From Sphingopyxis macrogoltabida (GTDB lineage: Bacteria > Pseudomonadota > Alphaproteobacteria > Sphingomonadales > Sphingomonadaceae), in the NCBI RefSeq assembly GCF_001314325.1, contig NZ_CP009429.1, positions 4,774,501 to 4,838,500 on the forward strand: DNA of 64,000 bases, read 5' to 3'. Positions within the stretch are counted from its first letter, which is position 1. Each line of letters starts with the position of its first letter. Shown here piece after piece: positions 18,172-33,021 of the stretch. Made by a program: the position numbers and the translations under genes. The notes under the pieces are model-generated. The model was given only the letters and a program-made list of their open reading frames with translations, did no database searches and was not told the DNA's origin.

Positions 18172-19860
18172 ATGGACATGAAACGACGGTTGGCGCTTGG
18201 CGCCGCGCTTTGGCTTTCGACGTCGGGCATGGCGCTCGCGGCCGAAGGCAGTCATGACGTCGTGATCCGCGGCGGCACCATCTATGACGGGTCGGGGGCG
18301 CCGGGCGTCGTCGGCGACGTCGCGATCGACGGCGACCGCGTCGTCGCCGTCGGCAAGGTCGCGGGCAAGGGCCGCACCGAAATATCCGCCGCCGGCATGG
18401 CGGTCGCGCCCGGCTTCATCAACATGCTGAGCTGGGCGACCGAATCGCTGATCGCCGATCCGAAAAGCCAGAGCGACATAAGGCAGGGCGTCACGCTGGA
18501 AGTGATGGGCGAAGGCTGGTCGATGGGGCCGCTCAATGCAAAGATGAAGACCCTCGAAACCGAGCGTCAGGGCGATATCAGATATCCGATCGAATGGACC
18601 AGCCTCGGCGATTATCTTTCCTGGCTCGAAAAACGCGGCATCGCGCCGAATGTCGCGAGCTTCGTCGGCGCAGCGACGGTGCGTGTCCATGAACTCGGCG
18701 AAGACGATGTCGACCCGACGCCCGAACAGCTCGACCGCATGCGCGCGCTCGTCCGGCAGGCGATGGACGAAGGCGCGCTCGGCGTCGGCAGTTCGCTCAT
18801 CTATGCGCCCGGCTCCTATGCCGAAACCGACGAGCTCGTCGCACTGACCGGCGAGGCGGCGAAATGCGGCGGCATGTACATCAGCCACATGCGGTCCGAA
18901 GGCGACCGGCTCGAGGAAGCGGTCGACGAGCTGATCGAGATATCGAAGCGGTCGGGCGCCCCGGCCGAAATCTATCACCTCAAAATGGCGGGCCGCGAAA
19001 ACTGGGGCAAGCTCGCCCCCGTCGTCGCCAAGGTCGAGGCAGCGCGCGCTGCGGGACAGCGGATCACCGCCGACATGTACACCTATACCGCCGGCGCCAC
19101 CGGGCTCGACGCGGCGATGCCGACCTGGGTACAGGCCGGCGGGCTCGAAAAATGGATCGAGCGGCTGAAAGATCCCGCGATCCGCGCGCGCGTCGCCGCC
19201 GAGATGCAGAAACCGGGCAACGACTGGGAAAATCTCTACTTCGGCGCCGGTGCCGACAAGATGATCCTGTCGGGTTTCAAGAACGACGCGCTCAAGCCGC
19301 TAACCGGCAAGACGCTCGCCGAGGTTGCGCAGATGCGCGGCAAGTCGCCCGAGGAGACGGCGATGGACCTCGTCGTCGAGGATGGCTCGCGCGTCGGCAC
19401 CGTCTATTTCCTGATGTCGGAGGACAATGTGCGCGCGCAGATCAAGCTGCCGTGGATGAGCTTCGGGTCCGATGCGGCATCGCAGGCGACCGAGGGCGTC
19501 TTCCTGAAATCGGGCGCCCATCCGCGCACCTATGGCAATGTCGCGCGCCTGCTCGGCCGCTATGTCCGCGACGAGAAGCTGATCCCGCTCGAACAGGCGG
19601 TGCACCGGCTGACCACCCTGCCCGCGACCAACCTCGGGATCAAGGAACGCGGCGCGCTGAAGCCCGGCTATTTCGCCGACGTCGTAATCTTCGACCCGGC
19701 GGCGGTCACCGACCGCTCGACCTTCGAGGCGCCGCACCAATATTCGCTCGGCGTCCGCGATGTCTTCGTCAACGGCGCGGCGGTGCTGAAGGACGGCGAG
19801 CCGACCGGCGCGACGCCGGGACGCGCGGTGCGCGGCGCCGGCTGGGGCAAATGCCGCTGA
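18172..19860 (+). CDS. Secreted amidohydrolase, D-aminoacylase-like, lacking the HxH motif
   Basis: Amidohydrolase-superfamily enzyme of 562 residues with a signal peptide (MKRRLALGAALWLSTSGMAL), so probably periplasmic. The order of motifs follows N-acyl-D-amino-acid deacylases: DVVIRGGTIYDGSG, AVAPGFINML, DIRQGVTLEVMGEGWSMGP, YISHMRSEG, IYHLKMAG, SFGSDA and LGIKERGALKPGYFADVV. Two differences stand out. The site that is normally PGFID(x)HTH reads PGFINMLSWATE (about 80-91), and the GNCG-type cysteine position appears to be Glu in GEGWS. Metal binding must therefore differ from the classical enzymes, or the active site uses a single metal. The GGGGAG upstream supports ATG 18172. Substrate unknown; an acylated amino acid or peptide is likely. 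Confidence 0.8.
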   Translation: MDMKRRLALGAALWLSTSGMALAAEGSHDVVIRGGTIYDGSGAPGVVGDVAIDGDRVVAVGKVAGKGRTEISAAGMAVAPGFINMLSWATESLIADPKSQSDIRQGVTLEVMGEGWSMGPLNAKMKTLETERQGDIRYPIEWTSLGDYLSWLEKRGIAPNVASFVGAATVRVHELGEDDVDPTPEQLDRMRALVRQAMDEGALGVGSSLIYAPGSYAETDELVALTGEAAKCGGMYISHMRSEGDRLEEAVDELIEISKRSGAPAEIYHLKMAGRENWGKLAPVVAKVEAARAAGQRITADMYTYTAGATGLDAAMPTWVQAGGLEKWIERLKDPAIRARVAAEMQKPGNDWENLYFGAGADKMILSGFKNDALKPLTGKTLAEVAQMRGKSPEETAMDLVVEDGSRVGTVYFLMSEDNVRAQIKLPWMSFGSDAASQATEGVFLKSGAHPRTYGNVARLLGRYVRDEKLIPLEQAVHRLTTLPATNLGIKERGALKPGYFADVVIFDPAAVTDRSTFEAPHQYSLGVRDVFVNGAAVLKDGEPTGATPGRAVRGAGWGKCR

Positions 19861-19964
19861 GCGAAAAGGCGTAATATTTCTGGGCCTTTGCCCCAGACAT
19901 ATCCGCGTTGCAACTTTCCCCGTACCGACCATTCTGGTCGCTCAGAACAGACATGGGGATGGAA

Positions 19965-21926
19965 ATGATCAAGAAGTCGCTCGCCGCGCTGACGCTGGTG
20001 CTGACCCTTTCGCCGCTGGTCGGCGCGCATGCCCAGCGCACGGTAACACCCGTCGTGCAGCCGGGCGGCGACATCCCCAAAAGCTATTCGCCCGAAAGCG
20101 AAGGCACCGACTATGAACGGCGCGTCGTCATGGTGCCGATGCGCGACGGCGTGAAGCTGCAGACGATCATCATCGTGCCCAAGGGCGCGAAGAACGCGCC
20201 GATCCTGATGGACCGTACGCCCTATAATGCGACGGCGCGTTCGACGCGGTCGACGAGCGCGCGCATGGTCAACGCGCTGCCGTTCGAGAATGAGCAGTTC
20301 GTCAGAAACGGCTATATCATCGTCTGGCAGGACACCCGCGGCAAGTTCGGGTCCGAGGGCGATTATACGATGATCATGCCGGTCGCGGGGCCGCTCAACA
20401 AGACCGGGGTCGACCATTCGACCGACGCCTATGACACGATCGACTGGCTGGTGAACAAGGCGAACCTGCCCGAAAGCAACGGCCGCGTCGGGATGATCGG
20501 CTCATCCTACGAAGGCTATACGACCGCGATGGCGTTGCTCAATCCGCACCCGGCACTGCGGGCGGCGGCGCCCGAAAGCCCGATCATCGATGGCTGGATG
20601 GGTGACGACTGGTTCCATTACGGCGCCTTCCGCCAGCTGATGCTCGGCTTCATCGCGATGCAGTCGGGCGAAAAGGGCTTCGCGAGCGCCCCCTCGCACG
20701 GCGGCGGCGACGATTATGACGTGTTCCGCGAAGCGGGGTCGGCCGGCGACTGGGCGCGCGCCCGCGGCTTCGACCAGCTTCCGGCGTTCAAGCGGGTGGT
20801 CGCCAATCCCGAATATAACGAGACATGGTCGGGGCAGGCGGTCGACAAGCTGCTCGCCGCCAATCCGTCCAACGTGCCGACGCTGTGGGTCCAGCCGATC
20901 TGGGATCAGGAGGACGGCTATGGCGCGATCCACTCGTTCGAGGCGCTGCGCGCCGCGGGCAAGACCGGCAACAACCATCTGATCCTCGGCCCGTGGTTCC
21001 ACAGCCAGGTCAACCGCGCCGCCGGCGGCCGCAGCGTCGGGCCGCTCAACTGGGACGGCGACACCGTCGAACATTATTGGAAGCGCATGGTGCTGCCCTT
21101 CTTCAACGAGCATCTGAAGGACGGCCCGCCGTCGAACATGCCTGTCGCGACGGTCTACAACACCGGCGAGGACCGCTGGGAGAGACTGACGACCTGGCCG
21201 CTCGCTTGCGAAAAAGGCTGCCCCTCACCGCTGACCCCGCTCTATCTCGCCGCCGACGGCGGGCTCAGCTTCAAGGCGGGTGGCACGGGCGGCGACAACT
21301 ATGTCTCCGATCCCGCCAAGCCGGTGCCCTTCCTGCAACGCCCGTTCAGCATGCAGCGTTCGGTCTACACCCCCGAATGGCCGACCTGGCTGGTCAGCGA
21401 CCAGCGCCACGTCGACGGGCGGCCCGACGTCATGACCTATCGCAGCGAGGTGCTGACCGCACCGGTGCGTGTGTCGGGCGCACCGATCGCCGACATCATC
21501 GCGCGCACGACCGGCACCGACGGCGATTTCGTCGTCAAGGTGATCGACGTCTTCCCGCAGGAAAATGCGAATAATCCCAATATGGGCGGCTATCAGCTCG
21601 CGATCGCGCTCGACATTTTCCGCGGCCGGTACCGGGACAGTTTCTCCGACCCCTCGCCAATTCCGGCTGGCAAGGCGCAGCGCTACAAGTTCCGCCTGCC
21701 GACCGTGAACCATGTGTTCCAGCCGGGGCACCGCATCATGATCCAGGTCCAGTCGAGCCTGTTCCCGCTCTACGACCGCAATCCGCAGACCTATGTCCCC
21801 AATATCTTCAACGCGAAGAAGGCGGACTATAAGGCGGCGACGATCACGCTCGAACGCGGCGCGAACGGCAGTCGCGTCTGGCTTCCGGTGGTGCCGGTCG
21901 ACCAGTCGGCGGCGGCGGCACAATAA
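19965..21926 (+). CDS. CocE/NonD family hydrolase, alpha-amino-acid ester hydrolase type
   Basis: A secreted serine hydrolase of 653 residues (signal peptide MIKKSLAALTLVLTLSPL). The nucleophile lies in IGSSYEGY (about S181). The acidic clusters DDWFHYGAF and WDQEDGYGAIHS match, as I recall them, the carboxylate residues that bind the substrate amino group in alpha-amino-acid ester hydrolases of Xanthomonas and Acetobacter. The C-terminal jelly-roll domain (YRSEVLTAPVRVSGAP onward) completes the family layout. Start ATG 19965 has GGGGA five bases upstream; ATG 19959 and 19953 are alternatives. The next gene starts 14 bp later behind GGAGGG, so the two form an operon. Natural substrates may be amino-acid esters, peptides or beta-lactam-like amides. 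Confidence 0.86.
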   Translation: MIKKSLAALTLVLTLSPLVGAHAQRTVTPVVQPGGDIPKSYSPESEGTDYERRVVMVPMRDGVKLQTIIIVPKGAKNAPILMDRTPYNATARSTRSTSARMVNALPFENEQFVRNGYIIVWQDTRGKFGSEGDYTMIMPVAGPLNKTGVDHSTDAYDTIDWLVNKANLPESNGRVGMIGSSYEGYTTAMALLNPHPALRAAAPESPIIDGWMGDDWFHYGAFRQLMLGFIAMQSGEKGFASAPSHGGGDDYDVFREAGSAGDWARARGFDQLPAFKRVVANPEYNETWSGQAVDKLLAANPSNVPTLWVQPIWDQEDGYGAIHSFEALRAAGKTGNNHLILGPWFHSQVNRAAGGRSVGPLNWDGDTVEHYWKRMVLPFFNEHLKDGPPSNMPVATVYNTGEDRWERLTTWPLACEKGCPSPLTPLYLAADGGLSFKAGGTGGDNYVSDPAKPVPFLQRPFSMQRSVYTPEWPTWLVSDQRHVDGRPDVMTYRSEVLTAPVRVSGAPIADIIARTTGTDGDFVVKVIDVFPQENANNPNMGGYQLAIALDIFRGRYRDSFSDPSPIPAGKAQRYKFRLPTVNHVFQPGHRIMIQVQSSLFPLYDRNPQTYVPNIFNAKKADYKAATITLERGANGSRVWLPVVPVDQSAAAAQ

Positions 21927-21940
21927 AAGCGGAGGGACAG

Positions 21941-24403
21941 TTGGCCGATCGACGTCACCGGCGGCTCGCTGCTGCCCGCTTCCTGTTCGCCGCGCCGCTT
22001 TGCCTTTTTGCGGCGGCGCCGGCCCAGGGCGAATGGACCAGCCAATATCCGCACGTCGAAAATGCCGCGAAGAATGTCGGCCACCAGCTTTATCTGGAGG
22101 CCTATAATCTGCCGACCTTCGCGGCGAGCCCGACCGATCCGGCGCCGTCGCCCGACGGCCGCTCGGTCGCCTTTGCCGCGCGCGGGTGGCTGTGGACGAT
22201 GGATGTCGCGACGCGGCAGGCGCGGCGCCTGACGCGCGGGCCCCGCATCGATTCGCGCCCGGCCTGGTCGCCCGACGGCCGCCAGATCGCCTTCGTCCGC
22301 GACAGCGGGCGCGACACCGACATCATGCTGGTCGACGTCGCGACGGGCAAGGAACGTGCGCTGGTCGCGAGCCCGGCGCTCGACCTCGACCCCGCCTTTG
22401 CGCCCGACGGCCAGTCGCTGTTCTACAGCTCTGCCGAAGCGGGCGATTTCGACCTGTGGCGGGTCGAGCTTGCCACCGGAACGAAAACCCGCCTGACCAC
22501 CGACACCGGTCAGGAACTGAACCCGCAGCCGATCGGCGGCGGCACCGGCCTCGCCTATGTCAACCGTGCCAAATATTTCAGCGACGCGGTTGCGACCCTC
22601 TCGCTCGCCGACGGCGAGCGCCGGACGCTGCTGTCGACGGGCATGGCACCGCAGCTCCGCGTCGCCGCATCGCCCGACGGGCGCTCCGTCGCCGTCACCG
22701 AACCCGATGGCGACCGGTTGAAGTTGATCACCCTCGACGCCGGTGGCGGCGACACGATCCGCGTTGCCCCCGACGCGACCTATCCGCTCGCGCCGAGCTG
22801 GTCGCGCGGCGGCGCGCTGTGGTTCGTCCAGCCGAACCGCGACAAGCAATTCACCCTTTACCGTACCCCGGCCGACGGCGGCGCCAGCGAGGACATGTCG
22901 CCGCTCGACTGGGATTTCGGCGAGCGCACCGCCCGCGTCACCATCCGCACCCGGCAGGCCGGCAAGCTGACGCCCGCCCGGCTGGCGATCGTCGACGGCA
23001 GCGGCCATCCTGCGGTTCCCGCAACCGGCCTCGCCTATTTCGACTTCCAGCAAGGCCGCGTCTTCACCCATTCGCCCGGCGTGGTAACGGTCGAGGTGCC
23101 CGCGGGCGCGATCCGGCTGACCGCGACGCACGGCTTCGACGGCGTGGCCGAAGCAACGCGGCAGGTGCGCGCCGGCGACACGGTGACGATCGACCTCGAC
23201 CTGCCCTCGACCGGCTTCGACGCCGCGGCGCGCGGCTGGTATTCGGGCGACCTCCACAACCATCTCAATTACGGCGGCCCCTATCAGCTCGAACCCGATG
23301 ATCTGGTGACGATGATGCGCGCCGAGGCACTCGACGTCGCGACGCCGCAGCTCGCCAACCTCCAGACGCGGCAGGTCGACGCCAAATGGTGGGGCTGGCA
23401 ACGCACCGAACTGCCGCTGATCCGCGTCTCGCAGGAGGTGCGCGCGCATTTCCTCGGCCATATCGGCGTGATCGGCACCGACGCACCGTTCGACCCGTGG
23501 TTCTTCGGCCCGAGCTACCCGGTCCGCGCGCAGAGCGAGCTGACCAACGCCGACGTGCTCCACTTCACCCGCGCGCACGGCGGACTCAATATCTATGTCC
23601 ATCCGGTGATCGGCAACGATCCCTTTCCGGCAACCGGCAACCCCGGCGGCTTTCCGCTCGCGCTGGTGCCCGACGCGGTGCTCGGCGACGTCGATGCGAT
23701 CGAGATCGCGTGCCTGTGGAGCGACGAGCTCGGCACCAGTGAGCTCTGGTATCGCCTCCTCAACCTCGGCCTGCCGGTTGCCCCGACCGCGGGCAGCGAC
23801 ACGATGCAGAATATCCACCGCATGATGGCGATCGGCTCGACCCGCGTCTACGCCAAGCCGGAGGGGCCGGTCGGCATGACGAGCTTCCTCGACGCGCTGC
23901 GCAAGGGCCGCAGCTTCGTCACCACCGGACCGATGATCGATTTCACCGCCGCCGGCGCGGGTCCGGGCGAAGTCGTCGCGGGCGGCAGCACATCGATCCC
24001 CTGGTCGCTCGACCTGTTTTCGCCGACCGCGGTCGAGACCGTCGAAATCCTCGTCAACGGGCGCGTCGTGTGGAGCGGCAAGGGGCTGCCCGCTGCGGGC
24101 AAGCGCAATTACAGCGGCACGATCGAGGTACCCGCGGGCGGCTGGATCGCCGCGCGCGTCCATGGCGGCGCCGCGGTCTGGCCGGTGCAGGACGGCGCGC
24201 CCTTCGCGCATAGCGCGCCGGTCTGGATCGGCCGGGTGGGCAGCACCGACCCCGCCGCGGCGCGCGGCGCCGCCGCCGACCTGCTGCGCTGGATGCCGGT
24301 CGGCGAAGCGCGACTCGCGACCGGCTATCCGGGCGAAAGCGGCGCGCGCCTCAAGGCCCGCTTTGCCGAAGCGCGCCAGCGGCTCGAAGCGTGGGCGAAA
24401 TGA
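21941..24403 (+). CDS. TolB-like beta-propeller fused to CehA/McbA-family metallohydrolase
   Basis: An exported two-domain protein of 820 residues. The N-terminal half holds PD40/TolB-type propeller blades (APSPDGRSVAFAARG, RPAWSPDGRQIAFVRD, DPAFAPDGQSLFY). The C-terminal half is a PHP-like metallohydrolase of the CehA/McbA group: YSGDLHNHLNYGG supplies the metal-binding HxH, with NIYVHPVIGN, IEIACLWSDE and TAGSDTMQNIHRM further on. Start is TTG 21941 behind a strong GGAGGG. Known CehA/McbA enzymes hydrolyse phosphoesters or carbamates; the substrate here is not predictable. It is the second gene of an operon with the ester hydrolase and may end at a T-rich stretch near 24464. Confidence 0.82.
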   Translation: MADRRHRRLAAARFLFAAPLCLFAAAPAQGEWTSQYPHVENAAKNVGHQLYLEAYNLPTFAASPTDPAPSPDGRSVAFAARGWLWTMDVATRQARRLTRGPRIDSRPAWSPDGRQIAFVRDSGRDTDIMLVDVATGKERALVASPALDLDPAFAPDGQSLFYSSAEAGDFDLWRVELATGTKTRLTTDTGQELNPQPIGGGTGLAYVNRAKYFSDAVATLSLADGERRTLLSTGMAPQLRVAASPDGRSVAVTEPDGDRLKLITLDAGGGDTIRVAPDATYPLAPSWSRGGALWFVQPNRDKQFTLYRTPADGGASEDMSPLDWDFGERTARVTIRTRQAGKLTPARLAIVDGSGHPAVPATGLAYFDFQQGRVFTHSPGVVTVEVPAGAIRLTATHGFDGVAEATRQVRAGDTVTIDLDLPSTGFDAAARGWYSGDLHNHLNYGGPYQLEPDDLVTMMRAEALDVATPQLANLQTRQVDAKWWGWQRTELPLIRVSQEVRAHFLGHIGVIGTDAPFDPWFFGPSYPVRAQSELTNADVLHFTRAHGGLNIYVHPVIGNDPFPATGNPGGFPLALVPDAVLGDVDAIEIACLWSDELGTSELWYRLLNLGLPVAPTAGSDTMQNIHRMMAIGSTRVYAKPEGPVGMTSFLDALRKGRSFVTTGPMIDFTAAGAGPGEVVAGGSTSIPWSLDLFSPTAVETVEILVNGRVVWSGKGLPAAGKRNYSGTIEVPAGGWIAARVHGGAAVWPVQDGAPFAHSAPVWIGRVGSTDPAAARGAAADLLRWMPVGEARLATGYPGESGARLKARFAEARQRLEAWAK

Positions 24404-24741: not shown

Positions 24742-25068
24742 ATGGCTGGAAAACATGACGCCGACAAGCTCAAGACATTGGCATCGGTCTCGACCGAGCG
24801 CCGCAAGCTGATCGGCCAGGCGATTATCGACGGGCTGATCTCGCCCGGCGAAGCCGCCTTCTCGCCCGTCGCTGCCGACCCCGATTATAATCAGGGTCAG
24901 GGCGGCTACACCCAGAAGGGCGGCGACCACAAGCAGGGCGGCGGCGACTATAACCAGTCGCAGGCGCTCACCAACATCCGCGATCTCGTCACCAACGTCA
25001 TCCAGCCGGGCAATGTCGTTCAGCCCGGCAATGTCGCAGGCGGCGTGACGCGCGGCGGCGGCGGCTGA
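24742..25068 (+). CDS. Putative RiPP precursor with four Tyr/His-x-Gln heptads
   Basis: Encodes 108 residues that I do not recognise as a named family. Residues 1-45 look like a leader (charged, with a helix around ERRKLIGQAIIDGLI and LISPGEAAFSP). Residues 48-75 form four consecutive heptads, DYNQGQG, GYTQKGG, DHKQGGG and DYNQSQA, placing aromatic residues at 49, 56, 63 and 70, each followed by x-Gln. A tail follows with a doubled VQPGNV-like unit (88-98) and a final GGGG. Start ATG 24742 is chosen because AAGGAG ends 7 bases upstream; ATG 24736 lies too close. Directly downstream are a radical SAM/SPASM enzyme, a JmjC oxygenase and a sulfotransferase. This is the setting of a ribosomally made, modified peptide, with each aromatic-x-Gln a candidate three-residue cyclophane. 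Confidence 0.8.
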   Translation: MAGKHDADKLKTLASVSTERRKLIGQAIIDGLISPGEAAFSPVAADPDYNQGQGGYTQKGGDHKQGGGDYNQSQALTNIRDLVTNVIQPGNVVQPGNVAGGVTRGGGG

Positions 25069-25110
25069 TCGCGCTCGCTCCCATGATCTCAAGACGATGA
25101 AGGATTGCTC

Positions 25111-26355
25111 GTGAACCAGCAACTCGGCATCGCTCCGGCGGCGGACACCCTTGTCCGTCGCCGCGAGTGGCGGGCCAGCCAGCCCGATTCGATCGACGCG
25201 CTTCAGGTCGTCTACAAGGTGGCCGAGCGCTGCAACATCAACTGCAGCTATTGCTATTATTTCCATATGGGCGACGAAACGCCGCTCGAACGCCCCGCCT
25301 ATGCGCCGCATGCGGTGACCGAGCGGCTGGCGCACTGGATGGCCGACGGCTGCGCCGAACTGCGCATCCCGCACGCCAAGCTCGCCTTCCACGGCGGCGA
25401 GCCGGCGATGATCGGCGCCGACGCGTTCGGCAAGGCGTGCCGGACGCTGCGCGACGTGATCGAACCCGTCGCGACGCTGTCGCTCGCGATCCAGACCAAC
25501 GGCGTGCTGCTCGACGAACGCTGGACCGACAGGTTCATCGAACATGCCGTCGGCGTCGGGATCAGCATCGACGGCCCGCAAGCCGCCAACGACCGTTTTC
25601 GGCTCGACAAGCGCGGCCGGTCGACCTTTCAGCGCAGCGAGGATGCGATCCGCCGCCTCGTCGCCGCGCGCCCCTATGGCGCGCCGCTGCCCTCGACGAT
25701 CAGCGTGCTGCACAGCGCCAACGACTATCGCGACATCTATCATTATCTGCGCGATCTGGGGGTCGAGGAACTCAATTTCCTGCTCCCCGACCGCAATGTC
25801 GACGATACCGCCTTCCGCGCCTCGGACGAAGCGGCCGACTATGGCCGCTGCCTGTCCGAAATCTTCGACGCCTGGCTCGCCGAGGACAATCAGGCGGTGC
25901 GCATCAAGTTCATCGACCAGACGATGGTCCATTTCCGCGCCAACGTGACGCCGGGCGCGATCTTTCGCCGCGGCCGCAAGAGCAATCAGGTGGTGATCGC
26001 GCGCAGCGACGGCACGGTGGCGATCGACGACAGCTATATCCCGGCGCTCGACTGGTACAGCCGCGCCCCGGTGCGGCCGATGGCAACGCATTCGCTGCGC
26101 GATTTCCTGGGCAATCCGATCTTTCAGGAGATCGAGACGACTGCGAACAGTATCCCCACCGGCTGCCGCGACTGCCGCTGGCGCGACATGTGCCGCGGCG
26201 GCGACCTCGAAAATCGTTTCTCGGCCGCGAGCGGCTTCGACAATCCGTCGGTCTATTGCGGCGCGTACAAGGGCCTGTACGCGACGGTTTGCCAGCGGCT
26301 CGTCGAAGGCGGCTATCCCGCCCATCTCGTCACAGAAAAATTCGGTGCCCTATGA
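25111..26355 (+). CDS. Radical SAM/SPASM peptide maturase, probable cyclophane-forming
   Basis: 414 residues. The radical SAM cluster motif CxxxCxxC is C41-C45-C48 in AERCNINCSYCYYF; FHGGEPAM (about 93-100) is the SAM-binding GGEP strand. The C-terminal SPASM domain has C352-x2-C355-x5-C361-x21-C383, the same spacing I recall for auxiliary cluster II of anSME. No cysteines lie between residues 248 and 351, so auxiliary cluster I seems absent. Start GTG 25111 has AAGGA six bases upstream; TTG 25105 is in frame but abuts that site. It lies 42 bp after the precursor and overlaps the JmjC gene (ATGA). The resemblance is to FxsB/triceptide maturases that join an aromatic ring to a beta-carbon two residues on. 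The reaction is inferred. Confidence 0.87.
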   Translation: MNQQLGIAPAADTLVRRREWRASQPDSIDALQVVYKVAERCNINCSYCYYFHMGDETPLERPAYAPHAVTERLAHWMADGCAELRIPHAKLAFHGGEPAMIGADAFGKACRTLRDVIEPVATLSLAIQTNGVLLDERWTDRFIEHAVGVGISIDGPQAANDRFRLDKRGRSTFQRSEDAIRRLVAARPYGAPLPSTISVLHSANDYRDIYHYLRDLGVEELNFLLPDRNVDDTAFRASDEAADYGRCLSEIFDAWLAEDNQAVRIKFIDQTMVHFRANVTPGAIFRRGRKSNQVVIARSDGTVAIDDSYIPALDWYSRAPVRPMATHSLRDFLGNPIFQEIETTANSIPTGCRDCRWRDMCRGGDLENRFSAASGFDNPSVYCGAYKGLYATVCQRLVEGGYPAHLVTEKFGAL

Positions 26356-27542
26356 TCCACGACCAGACCGCGGCATGGCTGTTCCATCCGCTTTCGACCG
26401 ACCGCTTCCTGTCCGACTTCTGGGCGAAGGAGCATCATGTCGTCCGCCGGGGCGACCCCGGCTATTTCGCCGGGCTGTTCAGCGCGCAGGCGCTCGAGGA
26501 GTTCCTCGAATATGGCCGCCCCGACCCCGCCGGTGTCCGGCTGGTCAAGGGCAAGGAGAAAAAGGAGCTCGCCGCCTATCGCCTCGGCAACGGCGCGATC
26601 GACATGGTTGCGCTGCGCAACGATTTCGCGGCGGGCTTCACGATCATCCTTAACGGGCTCGAACGCTATGTCGGCGCGGTCGCGGCGCTGGCGCGCTCGC
26701 TGGAGGTCGAACTCAACTTCGAAACGCAGGTCAACGCCTATATCACCCCGCCCGGATCGCAGGGGTTCCTGCCGCATTATGACGATCATGACGTCATCAT
26801 CCTGCAGATCGAGGGGTCGAAGCGCTGGCATATCTATGAGCAGGAAGGCGACGTGCCCGCCAGCGAGTTGCAGCAGCGCGAGCTGTTCGTCGGCGAAGAC
26901 CTGTCGCCCGCGACGCAATTGATCCTTCGCGCCGGCGACGTGCTCTACGTCCCCCGCGGCCGCGTCCATGCCGCCGAAACGCTCGACGAGACGTCGATTC
27001 ACCTGACGCTCGGCATCCATCCGCCGAACATGCTCGAACTCGTCAAGGCGGCGCTCGACACGATGGCGATCCGCGACGACCGGGTGCTCGAACGGCTGCC
27101 GCCGCGCTATCTCAACGATCCGGCGCAGCGCGCCCGCCTTGCCGGGCTGGCGCGCGAGCTGGCGGCGATGATCGACGACCGCGCGATCGGCGATGCGGTC
27201 GGCGCGATCGAAGACAGCCTACTCCGCCGCGGACGCTGTCCCCCCGCCGGCCGGCTGGTCGACGACGTCACTGGCAGCGGCAGCATCACCGAGGCGAGCC
27301 GACTCGCGCGCAACCAGCCGCTCTATGCCCGCGTCATGGCGCTGCCCGGCGGGGTCGGGCTGCAATTCGCGCAGACTCTCGTCACCGCAGACAGCAACCA
27401 CCGCGATGCGATGCTGTTCCTGTCGCGACAGAAAGAGCCGTTCCGCGTTGCCGAGATCCCGGGCATATCGGCGGGCGAACGGACGGACCTTGCGCGCAAG
27501 CTGCTGGTCGACGGGTTCCTCGTCCAGATGCCTGCGGACTGA
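26352..27542 (+). CDS. JmjC/cupin-4 2-oxoglutarate Fe(II) oxygenase, probable peptide hydroxylase
   Basis: 396 residues. The Fe-binding facial triad is H142-x-D144 in LPHYDDHDVIILQIEGSKRW and distal H206 in VPRGRVHAAE, the arrangement of bacterial ROXA/YcfD-like JmjC enzymes (PF08007). The C-terminal region beyond about residue 230 is helical and likely mediates dimer formation or substrate recognition. ROXA enzymes hydroxylate ribosomal protein L16, but this gene overlaps the radical SAM gene by 4 bp (ATGA) next to the precursor. Hydroxylation of the RiPP, for example at Asn, Gln or a cyclophane beta-carbon, is therefore the better guess. It is translationally coupled and has no promoter of its own. 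Confidence 0.85.
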   Translation: MIHDQTAAWLFHPLSTDRFLSDFWAKEHHVVRRGDPGYFAGLFSAQALEEFLEYGRPDPAGVRLVKGKEKKELAAYRLGNGAIDMVALRNDFAAGFTIILNGLERYVGAVAALARSLEVELNFETQVNAYITPPGSQGFLPHYDDHDVIILQIEGSKRWHIYEQEGDVPASELQQRELFVGEDLSPATQLILRAGDVLYVPRGRVHAAETLDETSIHLTLGIHPPNMLELVKAALDTMAIRDDRVLERLPPRYLNDPAQRARLAGLARELAAMIDDRAIGDAVGAIEDSLLRRGRCPPAGRLVDDVTGSGSITEASRLARNQPLYARVMALPGGVGLQFAQTLVTADSNHRDAMLFLSRQKEPFRVAEIPGISAGERTDLARKLLVDGFLVQMPAD

Positions 27543-27544
27543 CG

Positions 27545-28624
27545 ATGCACGGGCTCGCATCGTCATCCCGAGCCATGATCGGTGATAGGGCGGCGATCGA
27601 TATCGGTCTTCTGCTCGCCGGCCTCGCGGGCGAGGCGGAGACGGCGGCGCGGCTCGGGATTCACCCGGCGGAATTGCGCGAACTGCTCGACGGATCGGCA
27701 TTGTCGCGCTGCACGATGATGCCGGTCGGGGTCGGCGATAATCTCGATATCCGTTTCCTCGATATGGCGGGCGAAGCGTTCGATGCACCGACCTTCGACG
27801 ACAGCGTCGGCCGCGCAAGGTCGCGGGCCGGTGGGCGCCGGACGTTCAGCCTGCCGGCCAACGCCATCGCTGGCGCCGAGCCGCCGCGTGCCGCCCCGGA
27901 CGGCATCATCCTCCACGTCGGCCGCTGCGGCTCGACCCTCCTTTGCAATCTGCTGGCGAGCGGCGGCGACTGGGTCGCGCTGCGCGAACCCGAATGTCTG
28001 AACAGCCTCTTCCTTGCCCGCGCCGCGACGCGCGATCCGGCCGCGATCGATCGAATCGACACGCTGGCCGGGCAGTTGGCGGGCTGCCTCGCCCACGCCG
28101 TGCGCCCACGCAAATCGCTCGTGAAGCTCAGTTCGTGGACGACCCCGCTCGCCGCGCCGCTGCTGGCGCGCTTCCCCGGCACCCCGGTCATCGTCGTCGT
28201 TCGCGACCCCTGGCAAACGGTCGCCTCCTTCCTTGCCGAACCGCCGCACTGGTATGGTCCCGCCAGCGCGCAGCTCGCGGCAAGCGAAAGGGCCGGCGCG
28301 GTCCGGTTCTTCGCCGAAGCCTGGCGAAGCACGGTCACGGCCGCGCGGTGCCTGCCCGGCAAGCGCATCATGTTCGTCGATTATGAGGATATCGTCGGCA
28401 ACCCCGCTGCAACCCTCGCCAAGCTCCGCAGCCATCTGGGCGACGATGGCCCGCCGCTCGCCCCGGCCGCGCTGGAAGCGACGCTGGCATCCTATTCCAA
28501 GGCCGCGTCGGCCGAGGTGTTCGACCCGTCGGGAAAGCACCGGCGCGCGGTTCTGGCCCCCGATCTCGCCGAAATCGTGACCGCGGTCACCGCCGGCGAA
28601 TCGCTTGGCTGTCGATGCCGCTGA
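27545..28624 (+). CDS. Sulfotransferase-like P-loop protein, putative RiPP tailoring enzyme
   Basis: 359 residues. LHVGRCGSTLLCNLLAS (about 123-139) matches the 5'-phosphosulfate-binding loop of PAPS sulfotransferases, and IVVVRDPWQTVASF (about 216-229) matches the 3'-phosphate-binding segment. The N-terminal 110 residues are not recognised and may bind the acceptor peptide. The start ATG 27545 is 2 bp after the JmjC stop, implying one operon; ATG 27575 is an alternative. In context the acceptor could be a Tyr phenol or a hydroxyl added by the JmjC enzyme. It converges with the esterase gene on the other strand, 6 bp away, which marks the end of the biosynthetic operon. Sulfation itself is inference; similar P-loop proteins sometimes have other roles. 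Confidence 0.75.
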   Translation: MHGLASSSRAMIGDRAAIDIGLLLAGLAGEAETAARLGIHPAELRELLDGSALSRCTMMPVGVGDNLDIRFLDMAGEAFDAPTFDDSVGRARSRAGGRRTFSLPANAIAGAEPPRAAPDGIILHVGRCGSTLLCNLLASGGDWVALREPECLNSLFLARAATRDPAAIDRIDTLAGQLAGCLAHAVRPRKSLVKLSSWTTPLAAPLLARFPGTPVIVVVRDPWQTVASFLAEPPHWYGPASAQLAASERAGAVRFFAEAWRSTVTAARCLPGKRIMFVDYEDIVGNPAATLAKLRSHLGDDGPPLAPAALEATLASYSKAASAEVFDPSGKHRRAVLAPDLAEIVTAVTAGESLGCRCR

Positions 28625-28630
28625 AGACAC

Positions 28631-29587
28631 TCATCCGGGATCGCAATCCGGCGTGGCGGCGGATCCTGCGGCAACGTCGGCCGTCACTTGCCGATATATG
28701 CCGGGCCGGACGCGGTGCACCGATCGCAAGCCGGCCGAAATTGCCCGCGCCGCGATGGACACATGATCTTCGTTGTTCATGATCTCGCAGTCGAACCGCG
28801 TGCCCGGCCACTGCCGCAGCGCCAGTTGCTCCGCACACCATGTCACCGCGCTGCCGAAGCCGCAAAGCGCATTGTCGCGGCTCGTGCCGACCTCCTCCTT
28901 CCCGGCGCAGATGAAAATGTCCGCCGCCAGATCGCCATGCACCGAAGCAAATTCGGCCTCGGCGCGTTCGATCGATCCGGGCGCGGTCCTGAGGCTCGGG
29001 CTGATCGCAACATAGCGCGAGAAGGGCGAACCCGCGTCGAAGAGCGCGCGCAAAGCGAAATGTCCGCCAGCCGAATCGCCGATCAACGTGTGGCGCGCGG
29101 CCAGATCGACCGGATAGTGCGCCGCCAGACCAGGCAACAGGTCGTCGCGCAGAAACGCCAAGAAACGCTCGTAACCACCGGCCCGCATCCGCAGATCGCC
29201 CCGGCCCTCGACCGATTTGAGGTGCCCGAAAATCTCGTGCAGCCGCAGACCGAGGTCGTCGGTCATGTCCCACGGGCCATGAAAATCGAAGTTGCGGCGC
29301 GCATAGAAGCTCGCGAAACCCTCCTGCTCCGGATAGCCGACACCCACGACGATCGACGGCGGCAGCGGGCTGGCGACGCTCGCGAAGCGGCCGTGGACGA
29401 CCGTTTGCACGATGTCGAACAGCAGGTTGCCGTCCACCGCGAGGATGACCGGCAGGCGCGCGTCGTCCGGCACATTCGCCGGCATCGATACGTCGATCGC
29501 ATAATCGCCGAGGCCCGCCGCCTCGACCGTGAACTGGTCGTGCCGCTGCGGAACGAATGGACACGGGTCGATGGCGGATATCACCAT
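28631..29587 (-). CDS. Esterase of the Fes/BesA (esterase D, PF00756) type
   Basis: 318-residue alpha/beta hydrolase without a signal peptide. The nucleophile elbow is IGDSAGGHFA, VILAVDGN near the N-terminus is the strand shared with enterobactin/bacillibactin trilactone esterases, and NNEDHVSI carries the likely catalytic His. Pairwise reading suggests it is a distant paralogue of the + strand esterase at 33106, since both have a VDG strand, VVGIGYPE or VVGVGYPE, and the same length. It overlaps the peptidase gene upstream by 7 bp, so it is the last gene of the receptor-peptidase-esterase operon. Probable role: cleaving an ester bond in an imported compound. Confidence 0.8.
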   Translation of the reverse strand: MVISAIDPCPFVPQRHDQFTVEAAGLGDYAIDVSMPANVPDDARLPVILAVDGNLLFDIVQTVVHGRFASVASPLPPSIVVGVGYPEQEGFASFYARRNFDFHGPWDMTDDLGLRLHEIFGHLKSVEGRGDLRMRAGGYERFLAFLRDDLLPGLAAHYPVDLAARHTLIGDSAGGHFALRALFDAGSPFSRYVAISPSLRTAPGSIERAEAEFASVHGDLAADIFICAGKEEVGTSRDNALCGFGSAVTWCAEQLALRQWPGTRFDCEIMNNEDHVSIAARAISAGLRSVHRVRPGIYRQVTADVAAGSAATPDCDPG

Positions 29588-30669
29588 GCCAGCAACCCGG
29601 CGAGCATCTGCGCCTGCGCCGCGCAGCCGTTGGCGACCGCCCGGCTGCGCCAGACCGGATCGGCCGGGCAGAGCCGGTCCATCATCACCGCACGCAACGC
29701 TTCGCGCTGCTCCGCCGATCCCTTGCCGAACTTCAACCAGCGGTCGATCCGCAGCGCGTCCGTCACCTTTTCATTGTCGTATGTGCCGACCTCGATCGCG
29801 AGCCCCGCGCATTCGGCCCACGGCACGGCACCGGGTAGCCAGGCCGAGAAGAGCCCGGTGTAGGACGGGGTGACCCCCGCAGCGCCATCGAACGCCGCCG
29901 CCATCGTCGCGCGCGCCTCTTCCCCGAGCCAGTCGAACACCCGCGCATGGTGCGGCGAGGCGGGATCGTGGACACAGATGTGGCAAAGCTCGCCATAGGC
30001 GCCGAGGCCGGTGTGCCATTCGGCGAACGCCAGCTTTCGCGTGTTCCGGAGCATCTGCGGCAACAGCTCCGACACCGCCTCGTTCGACCAGGCCGGCGCT
30101 TGTCCGCCGAAGTTCATGCCCTGCGGATTTTCGAACTGCCCGCCGGTAAAGCCGCTCAGAAAATCCGCCCAGCCATGTTCGGCGACGATGCGGTCGCGCA
30201 TCGCGGTCCAATCGATCGTCGCCTCGTTCCAGTCGTCGGGGCACAAGGCCTGGTGCAATTTCCGGTAGACCGGGTTCGCGGGAAGCCCCGCGGCGAAATC
30301 ACGGAAATTGCGGTTGAGATCGATATTGGCCTCGTCGGTGCGCGACAGGTGCGAAAAGCCCCACGGGTTGAGCGCGTGGAGCAGGACGATATTGGCACCC
30401 GCCGGAACATCCAGATTGTCCAGATATGCGAGCTGGATCGCCGATCCCGTATAGCCTTCCTGTCCGTGCGTCCCCGATATCAGCAGCAGCGTCCGCGCGG
30501 CGTCGGGGTCGCCGAACACGGCAAGGTCCATCGCCAGCGCCTCGCCGCTCACGCCCGTCCGCGAGGGATGCGCCCGTGAAAGCAGGCGCGCGCCGCGACG
30601 TTGGGCAAGCGTCAGAAACTTGCCGCGCGCCTCGGCATAGCTCGCGCTGAAGGCCTGACTGGCGTCCAT
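29581..30669 (-). CDS. DUF2817 M14-like zinc peptidase
   Basis: 362 residues, cytoplasmic. The zinc-peptidase signature is clear: SGTHGQEGYTGSA gives HxxE, NIDLNRNFRDF gives the substrate-carboxylate Arg/Asn block, AEWHTGLG the second zinc His, and LAIEVGTY the general-base Glu. DUF2817 proteins belong to the carboxypeptidase/deacylase M14 group. It begins 3 bp after the TonB receptor stop and overlaps the esterase gene, so the three are co-transcribed. In this setting it probably trims or cleaves an imported peptide; a role in trimming the RiPP tail before export is also possible. Start ATG 30669 is the only fitting choice. Confidence 0.84.
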   Translation of the reverse strand: MDASQAFSASYAEARGKFLTLAQRRGARLLSRAHPSRTGVSGEALAMDLAVFGDPDAARTLLLISGTHGQEGYTGSAIQLAYLDNLDVPAGANIVLLHALNPWGFSHLSRTDEANIDLNRNFRDFAAGLPANPVYRKLHQALCPDDWNEATIDWTAMRDRIVAEHGWADFLSGFTGGQFENPQGMNFGGQAPAWSNEAVSELLPQMLRNTRKLAFAEWHTGLGAYGELCHICVHDPASPHHARVFDWLGEEARATMAAAFDGAAGVTPSYTGLFSAWLPGAVPWAECAGLAIEVGTYDNEKVTDALRIDRWLKFGKGSAEQREALRAVMMDRLCPADPVWRSRAVANGCAAQAQMLAGLLAW

Positions 30670-30672
30670 CGA

Positions 30673-32931
30673 TCAAAAACGCTTGCTGATAGCGGCGCCG
30701 ATCGTCCGGGGGCGCTGGACGGCCACCAGATTACTCGCCAGCGTCGTGGCGCCGAGTTGCGCGCGCTCGTCGCCGAGGTTGCGGACGAAGAGGCTGAACT
30801 CCCAGTCGTCGACCCGCACCCCGCCACGCAGGTTGACCAGCGTGTAGGACGGCAGGACATATTGCGCATAGACGAGGCTGCTCTGGAAACCCGAATAGCG
30901 TTTGCCGACGAAATTCGCGGACGCGCCGACGAAACCTTCCGCATCGCCCATCGGCCATTCGTAATCCGCCGACAAAGAACCGCTCCATTTGGGGTTCATC
31001 GGCATCGGGTCGCCCTTGGTGCCCAGCCCGCCTGGGATCGTTTCGTTGAGCTTGGCATCCGAATAGGCGAAGCTGCCCGACAGCGTCAGTCCGTCGGCGG
31101 GCTCGAGGCGCAGCGACGCCTCGACGCCGCGGCTCGTCGCGCTGCCGCCGTTGGTCTGCCCGTTGATTCCGTTCGCGATCGTCAGGATCTGGATATTCTT
31201 CCAGTCGATATTGTAGAGGCTGAGGTCGAAAAAGCCGCGCCCCTCCCAAAAGCTCGTCTTGACCCCCAGCTCGTAATCATAGGTCGTGTCAGGCTCGAAG
31301 GTCGTCGGCAGGCCGGGCACGATGATGTTCGGGCCGCCGGGGCGGAAGCCCGTCGCGAAGCGCGCATAAACCATGCTGCGCGGCGAGAATTTATAGCGGA
31401 CGCTGGCAAGGTAGGTGACGACGCTGTCGCTGTCCTTCGCCAGGCCGGAGTCGGCAGGGGTCGGCGAGAAGCCGAAGTCGCCGAACAACGCGTTGAGCGC
31501 CGCCGCGTCGCTGCCCGAATAGAGCTGACGATAATCCTGATCGATGAACTGCACCCGGATGCCGCCGGTGATGTCGAGTTTGGGGGTGGGCGACCAGGTC
31601 GCGTTCCCGAAGCCCGCATATTCGGTGTAGTGCGTCAGCAGGTCATAGCGGACCAACGGCGAGAGATTGCCGGGACGCGGCCGGCCATTTTCGTCGTAGG
31701 ACGAGACGACCTGCGCGTTCTGCGATTTCTCATGATTGTAGAACAGGCCGACGACCCATTTGAACGAGCCGTCGTCGGGCGAGGTCAGGCGCAGTTCCTG
31801 CGTGATCTTGTCGGTACCGAGTTCGACCGACACCGCCGGATTGGCCGGGGTCGGCAGCGTCACCCCGCCATAAAGCGGCAGGAAGTTCACGACGATGGCG
31901 CCCAGCCGTGCGGCGGTGAAGTCGACCAGATTGCGCGAATCCAGATTCTGGTAGCTGGTGATCGACGACAGGGTTGCCCAGTGCAGATCGGCGTCGACGT
32001 TCAGCGCGACCATGTTGAGCTTGCTGTTGTAGACCGGCAGTACGGCATCGTTGTTGACGAGATCGCCAGCCGCCGGCCGCTGCGTCGCCGGGTTGTAGAC
32101 GACCAGATCCTGTTTTGATTCGACGCGCGAATAGAGGTCCGAAATCGTGACCCTGAGATCGGGCGTAAGCTCTGCCGCGAGCGCGATCCGGCCGCCGTAG
32201 GATTTGCGGTTGTTGAAATCCTCCCGGCCCGCCGCGACATTGTCGACGAAACCGCCGAGCGCGCTACCGAAGCCCCCAATCTGGAGCGCGACGCGGTCGG
32301 TCGCGAGCGGCGTGTTGACCATGGCGCGGAGCGTGCCGCCGAGTTCGCCTTTGCGTGTCGTCATGCCCTCGGCAAAGAAGCTGCCTTCGGTCTCGCCAAG
32401 ATTTGGCTGTTTCAGGACATAATTCACGATGCCGCCGAGCGTGCTCGATCCATAGAGCGTGCCTTGCGGGCCGCGCAGCACCTCGACCTGCGTCAGCAGC
32501 GAGGGATCGAGTTCGGGCATATAGGAGCCGCCCGCGGCGCCGAACGCCGCCGGGCCGACCGGCGCGCCGTCGATCTGCAGCCCGACGGTCGAATTGCCGT
32601 CGTTGCCCGAGGTGATCCCGCGAATCGTCAGCGAGCCCGACCCGATGCCGCCCGCAATCTGCAGGCCGGGCGCCGACGCGCTCAAATCGCGGAGCGTGAC
32701 CGCGCCGGCGGCCTGGAGTTGGTCGGCGCTCACGGCGGTGACGGCGACCGGGACGTCGCTCAATTTCTCCGAGCGCTTCTGCGCCGTCACGACGATTTCG
32801 CTGTCGTCGTCCGCCGATGCCGCAGAACCGGCGGACCTATCCTGCGCCCACGCAGCGCCGCCGGCCGCAAGCGCCGCCAAAGCGGCGCCGCAGCCGAACA
32901 TGGTTTTCCACATAGCTGTCCGAACGATCAT
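30673..32931 (-). CDS. TonB-dependent receptor of the RiPP-linked operon
   Basis: Outer-membrane receptor of 752 residues. Signal peptide MIVRTAMWKTMFGCGAALAA ends near AAWAQ; the TonB box region is DSEIVVTAQKRSEKLSDVPV; plug motifs include LRDLSASAPGL, LTIRGITSGN and VLRGPQGTLYGSSTLGGIVN; the barrel ends in GAAISKRF with terminal Phe. Start ATG 32931 has GGAG 8 bases upstream (a longer frame begins at 32949). The operon continues with an M14-like peptidase and an esterase. A palindrome shared with another promoter lies 93 bp upstream. The combination of receptor plus peptide and ester hydrolases suggests uptake of a peptidic compound, perhaps the neighbouring RiPP. Confidence 0.92.
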   Translation of the reverse strand: MIVRTAMWKTMFGCGAALAALAAGGAAWAQDRSAGSAASADDDSEIVVTAQKRSEKLSDVPVAVTAVSADQLQAAGAVTLRDLSASAPGLQIAGGIGSGSLTIRGITSGNDGNSTVGLQIDGAPVGPAAFGAAGGSYMPELDPSLLTQVEVLRGPQGTLYGSSTLGGIVNYVLKQPNLGETEGSFFAEGMTTRKGELGGTLRAMVNTPLATDRVALQIGGFGSALGGFVDNVAAGREDFNNRKSYGGRIALAAELTPDLRVTISDLYSRVESKQDLVVYNPATQRPAAGDLVNNDAVLPVYNSKLNMVALNVDADLHWATLSSITSYQNLDSRNLVDFTAARLGAIVVNFLPLYGGVTLPTPANPAVSVELGTDKITQELRLTSPDDGSFKWVVGLFYNHEKSQNAQVVSSYDENGRPRPGNLSPLVRYDLLTHYTEYAGFGNATWSPTPKLDITGGIRVQFIDQDYRQLYSGSDAAALNALFGDFGFSPTPADSGLAKDSDSVVTYLASVRYKFSPRSMVYARFATGFRPGGPNIIVPGLPTTFEPDTTYDYELGVKTSFWEGRGFFDLSLYNIDWKNIQILTIANGINGQTNGGSATSRGVEASLRLEPADGLTLSGSFAYSDAKLNETIPGGLGTKGDPMPMNPKWSGSLSADYEWPMGDAEGFVGASANFVGKRYSGFQSSLVYAQYVLPSYTLVNLRGGVRVDDWEFSLFVRNLGDERAQLGATTLASNLVAVQRPRTIGAAISKRF

Positions 32932-33021
32932 CTTGCGAGCTCCCTCCACCCGATCGGCGCTCGAGCCCGGATATTCACCCGCCCTGGCACCGAATCCATC
33001 CTATGCCCGCCGATTCTCTCG

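Follow-up and report, generated by a model that had tools for sequence, protein, structure and literature searches.

Gene content of the operon

The stretch of Sphingopyxis macrogoltabida DNA analyzed here, 64,000 nucleotides in length and referred to as the window, lies on a 5.17-Mb contig of a 5.75-Mb genome. At positions 24742 to 28624 it carries a tandem operon of four genes on the + strand, which encode a precursor peptide, a radical SAM/SPASM enzyme, a JmjC_2 oxygenase, and a PAPS-type sulfotransferase. The features are as follows.

24742 to 25068, + strand: precursor peptide gene, 108 amino acids, ATG start, assigned from homologues and from its position upstream of the radical SAM gene
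24802 to 24837, + strand: conserved leader segment RKLIGQAIIDGL, residues 21 to 32, from alignments A1 and A3
24883 to 24960, + strand: precursor core with four [Y/H]xQ motifs, D-YNQ-GQGG-YTQ-KGGD-HKQ-GGGD-YNQ-S
25111 to 26355, + strand: radical SAM/SPASM enzyme, 414 amino acids, GTG start, PF04055, predicted cyclophane synthase
26352 to 27542, + strand: JmjC_2 Fe(II)/2-oxoglutarate oxygenase, 396 amino acids, PF08007, predicted peptide hydroxylase
27545 to 28624, + strand: PAPS-dependent sulfotransferase, 359 amino acids, assigned from PF13469 and the predicted fold

The gene coordinates confirmed the tight spacing given in a preliminary description of this DNA, with a gap of 42 bp between the precursor and radical SAM genes, an overlap of 4 bp between the radical SAM and JmjC genes, and a gap of 2 bp between the JmjC and sulfotransferase genes. 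Two genes have alternative starts: for the precursor, an ATG in the same frame six nucleotides earlier, which nearly coincides with the AAGGAG site, and for the radical SAM enzyme, a TTG at 25105. The same description had noted the absence of an RRE/PqqD-type protein, a peptidase-transporter, and a lanthipeptide enzyme, and no PqqD, peptidase-transporter, or lanthipeptide model matched in a Pfam scan of ten genes of the region, a scan that a divergent RRE could escape.

The nearest named relative of the locus is found in Sphingopyxis flava, whose radical SAM enzyme is 87% identical. By blastn, the DNA of the two species is similar from 24742 to 27526 (80.5%) and then over part of the sulfotransferase gene (68%). 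The similarity sets in with the start codon of the precursor gene and is confined to the operon; the S. flava contig stops just past the sulfotransferase gene, and the comparison of the flanks there refers to the upstream side. Between the two precursors, 28 codon differences are synonymous and 12 are not.

The precursor carries repeated Tyr/His-x-Gln motifs

The precursor is a short peptide rich in Gly and Tyr, as had been described, and its main feature, which the preliminary description lacked, is a [YH]xQ repeat (Y49-Q51, Y56-Q58, H63-Q65, and Y70-Q72 in the window). Precursor homologues were collected with a single-sequence search (50 at E ≤ 1, of which five were adapter chimeras) and with a search using an alignment of 21 diverse members (198 at E ≤ 1e-3). 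We inspected 125 precursors, namely, the 50 at E ≤ 1 and 75 new ones among the matches listed (120 of the 198), and the counts that follow refer to these listed matches. Exactly four motifs were present in 113 of the 125. The other 12 comprise six precursors with five motifs (the additional one in P0192, P0197, and P0205 being an F-x-Q that lies further along the sequence), two with three (P0009 and P0236, which appear cut off or frameshifted), one with two (P0005, which is diverged), and three with none (P0046, P0048, and P0050, which are read-adapter-like chimeras). Five database homologues (P0008, P0009, P0046, P0048, and P0050) are fused to a sequencing-adapter-like peptide and are probably artefacts; P0008 was counted among the precursors despite its adapter-flanked look.

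The start-to-start spacing of the motifs was 7 or 8 residues in 362 of 368 intervals of the inspected precursors. Among the 113 four-motif precursors, motif 1 begins with Y in 112, the remaining one having H, and the same numbers apply to motif 2; motif 3 begins with H in 105 and with Y in the other 8, and motif 4 begins with Y throughout. The middle residue is of 16 kinds, and the outer pair is fixed. In alignment A3, residues Y56, Q58, Q65, Y70, Q72, G25, I28, and G68 are invariant, and G25 and I28 are also invariant in alignment A1. The conserved leader segment is likely the recognition element for the radical SAM enzyme.

Judged from these alignments, a fixed outer pair with a free middle residue is the signature of a substrate for three-residue cyclophane (triceptide) formation, with Gln as the putative partner; triceptide precursors have aromatic-x-X motifs with just this constancy of the outer residues and variability of the middle one. 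The constant outer residues, the variable middle one, the exchange of Tyr and His, and the kinship of the enzyme to cyclophane maturases together lead to the prediction of cross-links from residue i to residue i + 2. In triceptides, this link is a C-C bond between an aromatic ring and the beta carbon of residue i + 2. Sactipeptides and ranthipeptides, on the other hand, require precursor Cys for their thioethers; the precursor has no Cys in any of its 108 residues, and therefore, thioethers are out.

Co-occurrence and distribution of the gene pair

A pattern-based, nonexhaustive scan of a collection of species genomes yielded 30 loci. The set compared below consists of 18 loci, that is, the window, L002 to L017, and L021, whose radical SAM enzymes are at least 41% identical. 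In 17 of them, the radical SAM gene is preceded on the same strand by a small ORF that has three to five [YH]xQ motifs. In the 18th, L017 from Mitsuaria, two small ORFs (11310 to 11845) with the motifs FVQ/FQQ and YTQ/YSQ/YSQ lie downstream. A precursor thus adjoins the radical SAM/SPASM maturase, as is typical of triceptide systems. The preliminary description would have been refuted if homologues of the radical SAM gene never occurred beside a similar small gene; this check was run, and the description withstood it. L017 is a deeper branch, and its two ORFs have leaders that differ from those of the other precursors, which argues for a motif tied to the enzyme rather than to the leader. The Mitsuaria genome encodes two more such radical SAM enzymes close together (G785 C135). 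In L005, from Enhygromyxa, a 482-residue ORF without a Pfam match (8541 to 9986) separates the precursor from the radical SAM gene.

As a control, we screened 2,777 six-frame ORFs of 50 to 220 amino acids from the window and the 30 loci, and 20 had at least three [YH]xQ motifs within 40 residues. Seventeen of these lie upstream of the radical SAM gene, one lies just downstream (L017), and two lie kilobases away (L027 and L028) and look unrelated to the pathway. The pairing of motif-bearing ORF and radical SAM gene is not due to chance. No [YH]xQ neighbor was seen in the 13 other loci (L018 to L020 and L022 to L031; 25 to 40% identity), some of which are on short contigs.

Loci with the pair come from Pseudomonadota, Actinomycetota, Myxococcota, and Planctomycetota. 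The distribution within these groups is sparse: in the family of the window, only 1 of 397 genomes matched the radical SAM enzyme at E ≤ 1e-100, and this was the window's own; in a sample of the phylum, 4 of 398 matched at 1e-60, the three besides the window's genome only distantly (27 to 33% identity); and in Nonomuraea, the genus of L003, 3 of 54 matched at 1e-100. In a tree calculated without L021, L030, and L031, and from which the program dropped L020 and L025, members with and without JmjC fall on opposite sides of one branch (moderate support, 84/87; 15 rows ungrouped). The tree mixes phyla, which is consistent with transfer, although L016 is a long branch. In three related alphaproteobacteria (L010, L011, and L012), precursor and radical SAM genes without an adjacent JmjC gene occupy one common place beside trpF- and trpB-like genes (assigned by eye), which suggests stable vertical inheritance.

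Upstream and downstream of the operon (window positions 18172 to 24403 and 28631 to 32949) are genes for an amidohydrolase, a CocE/NonD protein of family S15, a CehA/McbA protein, an esterase, a DUF2817 protein, and a TonB-dependent receptor. We considered these hydrolases and the receptor as parts of the pathway and rejected them, because the similarity to S. flava is limited to the operon and the flanks are not part of any gene family shared more widely among the loci. Antisense frames aside, no family of ORFs of at least 100 amino acids other than the precursor, radical SAM, and JmjC families was common to more than 3 of the 18 loci, some of which are on short contigs. A peptidase or transporter common to the 18 loci was not seen.

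If the modified precursor stayed whole inside the cell, as a modified protein or a cofactor-like part rather than an exported product, the small number of gene families shared by the loci, the location beside trp-like genes in L010 to L012, and the long follower of some precursors would fit. However, the followers differ among precursors and are nearly missing from those of Nonomuraea and L021, the patchy spread suggests a specialized metabolite, and many RiPPs rely on proteases coded elsewhere. We therefore regard an intracellular role as rather unlikely and a released peptide as the better reading.

The radical SAM enzyme is related to cyclophane maturases

The enzyme matches Pfam Radical_SAM (PF04055) with 44 bits (cut-off, 29.5) and has the Cys residues of a CxxxCxxC motif at 41, 45, and 48 and those of the SPASM region at 352, 355, 361, and 383, in agreement with the preliminary description. 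Its best NCBIfam models are YhhB (NF041707; 241 bits versus a cut-off of 445), XyeB (TIGR04496; 234 versus 450), and FxsB (TIGR04269; 225 versus 370), all three of which are cyclophane maturases. Ten relatives, namely, nine further locus enzymes and P0163, which is labeled as XyeB family in its public record, scored 214 to 250 bits with YhhB and 217 to 264 bits with XyeB. The window's scores are about half to three-fifths of the cut-offs, and therefore, the reaction may differ from those of the three families. A search for the YhhB family in 299 genomes gave no true YhhB over the cut-off. The best solved relative is ChlB (PDB 9gm3; E = 1.1e-36), and the four cysteines that lie in the C-terminal cluster region are common to both.

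The same motifs could carry another bond, such as an ether to the Tyr oxygen, a link to the alpha or gamma carbon of Gln, a carbon-nitrogen bond to His, or a cross-link from one motif to another. The bonds formed by related SPASM enzymes are diverse and include the ether in darobactin (PMC9055067, in the part available), the DarE model matched the present enzyme at 95 bits, and the scores are below the cut-off of every cyclophane family. On the other hand, the combination of free middle residue, fixed outer residues, and Tyr/His exchange fits a link from a ring carbon at i to i + 2 best, and the three top models as well as the nearest solved chain are from the cyclophane field. Another bond is thus quite unlikely, and we prefer the cyclophane.

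The JmjC oxygenase and the sulfotransferase

The third gene product matches Pfam JmjC_2 (PF08007) with 103 bits (cut-off, 22), and its HxD...H metal site (H142, D144, and H206) is invariant across ten cluster copies; the fourth matches Sulfotransfer_3 (PF13469) with 49 bits (cut-off, 27). Both assignments, an Fe(II)/2-oxoglutarate oxygenase with HxD...H and a sulfotransferase-like protein, had been made before and are borne out. An NCBIfam model for the JmjC protein was not found at E ≤ 0.1, and its best solved relatives are the ribosomal oxygenases NO66 and MINA53.

Among the 18 loci, a JmjC gene is adjacent in ten, from four phyla, and is lacking in eight; in nine of the ten it follows in the same orientation, and in L016 it is on the opposite strand. 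A sulfotransferase gene is adjacent only in the window and in S. flava and is lacking in the other 16, so it is a local add-on outside the conserved unit. The RiPP operon with triceptide-like logic of the preliminary description is supported, within the limit that the sulfotransferase is confined to two of these loci.

The kinship to NO66 and MINA53 and the rarity of the sulfotransferase could mean that the JmjC protein modifies a ribosomal protein, as ribosomal oxygenases do, and that it is a mere neighbor, with the sulfotransferase unrelated as well. We consider this very unlikely: the JmjC gene overlaps the radical SAM gene by four bases, it recurs beside it across four phyla, and two more JmjC_2 genes over the cut-off are present elsewhere in the window's genome, so housekeeping could be served by those. 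A peptide hydroxylase remains our assignment. Two candidate target sites did not hold. His at motif 3 is unsupported, as the Nonomuraea loci L003, L004, and L007 and the Colwellia locus L016 have JmjC and only Tyr; D/N before motif 3 was dropped (9/10 versus 3/7, with L005 added outside the alignment and L017 left out; p = 0.10).

For the sulfotransferase, we used a predicted model with a pLDDT of 80; an alignment-free model (pLDDT of 40) was left out. The predicted fold is closest to tyrosylprotein sulfotransferases (TPSTs); the matches listed were all PAPS sulfotransferases, with ranks within about 1 Z being ties. With Foldseek, the best TPST gave a TM-score of only 0.47 to 0.50. E148 aligned to a Glu of TPST1, and in the profile comparison, CurM, an enzyme of a polyketide pathway, scored as high as TPST1. 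For the supply of PAPS, the window's genome has two APS kinase matches over the cut-off. Related sulfotransferases are encoded in other sphingomonads near an Asp_Arg_Hydrox or JmjC_2 2-oxoglutarate oxygenase (L053, 5236 to 7190; L054, 6344 to 10442; L055, 2056 to 8020), together with an asparagine synthase in L055 (Pfam) and L054 (by eye). L055 also encodes an HPr-kinase-like protein, recognized by Pfam, and proteins that resemble tail-collar proteins by eye. This arrangement looks like a separate peptide-modifying cluster.

Proposed pathway

Gene order, conservation of motifs and active sites, co-occurrence, and the APS kinase genes are direct observations; from the sequences, we infer every chemical step given here, the order of the steps, leader recognition, and release by proteases. 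The radical SAM/SPASM enzyme would bind the precursor via the conserved leader segment and, in each motif, link the beta carbon of the third residue, Gln, to the ring of the first, Tyr or His. The result would be up to four three-residue cyclophanes chained by flexible Gly linkers, and each cyclophane should lower the mass by 2.016 Da. Hydroxylation of the cross-linked peptide by the JmjC oxygenase would follow (+15.995), probably at the beta carbon of a residue that belongs to a motif or adjoins one. Only in the Sphingopyxis-like loci would the sulfotransferase then add sulfate (+79.957) to a peptide oxygen, for which the Tyr phenol is slightly likelier than the new alcohol. The peptide would presumably be released by proteases coded elsewhere.

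The sequence data support the operon as a RiPP pathway with triceptide-like logic, and we hold the pathway as a whole, with four Tyr/His-x-Gln cyclophanes, JmjC hydroxylation, and sulfation in Sphingopyxis-like loci, to be probable. A stricter version is put forward tentatively, as possible though somewhat short of an even case: a separate, phylum-crossing RiPP clade with four successive, Gly-spaced Tyr(C3)-Gln(C-beta) or His(C2)-Gln(C-beta) cyclophanes and a stand-alone JmjC hydroxylase, the clade's product in Sphingopyxis being a sulfated triceptide. The pathway is a promising candidate for a new branch of a known peptide family with relatives in distant phyla. It would be a compact system of two to four genes for rigid multiring peptides, with a Tyr/His-Gln pairing that is not among the described ones found, and a natural case in which a peptide pathway has taken over a JmjC enzyme of the ribosomal-oxygenase type. 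The precursors with Tyr for His at motif 3 (8 of 113 among the matches listed, which may not be independent) make the ring specificity of one enzyme clade testable.

Comparison with known systems

In the literature covered, no report of this gene set, of the YxQ motif, of a Tyr/His-Gln cyclophane pairing, or of a sulfated triceptide was found; the main survey of the triceptide landscape (JACS 2022) is outside this coverage, and an earlier mention of YxQ there is possible. Single elements have counterparts elsewhere. In the available parts of the respective papers, the JmjC-like hydroxylase of biphenomycin biosynthesis (BpmG/PbsQ) acts after earlier modifications (PMC12257519), and the methanobactin operon contains a sulfotransferase, MbnS (PMC3621798). 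However, the core enzymes and precursors of both systems differ from the present ones, and MbnS belongs to PF00685, whereas the present sulfotransferase belongs to PF13469. NO66 and MINA53 share the JmjC_2 family and the HxD...H site, but the present gene is in an operon with a RiPP-like precursor.

Among cyclophane systems, XyeB is the second-best model of the present enzyme, but the motifs of XncB are reported, in the part of PMC11002830 available, with Trp or Phe and not with Tyr/His-x-Gln. A title in the reference list of PMC12636437 calls ChlB, the nearest solved sequence, a multiple cyclophane synthase. According to the available part of that paper, a radical SAM domain of the ChlB type occurs as a fusion with an HExxH enzyme that uses 2-oxoglutarate; this enzyme hydroxylates Asp and His at their beta carbons, for which a preinstalled cyclophane is required. 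The four operon proteins contain no HExxH, and the present hydroxylase is a separate JmjC_2 protein rather than a fused domain; by analogy, it would fill the part of the ChlB hydroxylase domain.

A close likeness is to YhhB triceptides and H(Y)NR clusters, which we infer to belong together. In the available part of PMC11002830, YhhB connects C3 of Tyr and C2 of His with the Arg beta carbon, YxdB links Tyr to Asp, HaaB links His to Ala, and the partners of XncB, OscB, and MscB are Arg, Asn, Asp, and Ser. Gln was not found among the aliphatic partners there, so the pairing may be new or the reaction may differ. The H(Y)NR gene clusters hold an alpha-ketoglutarate oxidase and a peptidase (PMC9062424, section 4, in the part available). 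Repeated Tyr/His-x-X motifs and a radical SAM enzyme of the same SPASM group are common to these systems and the present one, and the H(Y)NR clusters also have an oxygenase in common with it. In contrast to them, the present system has Gln instead of Arg as the third residue, a radical SAM enzyme below the 445-bit cut-off, a JmjC_2 oxygenase, a sulfotransferase, four Gly-spaced motifs, and no peptidase gene in the operon. It is a sister arrangement to the H(Y)NR clusters, with Gln, JmjC_2, and no operon-borne peptidase.
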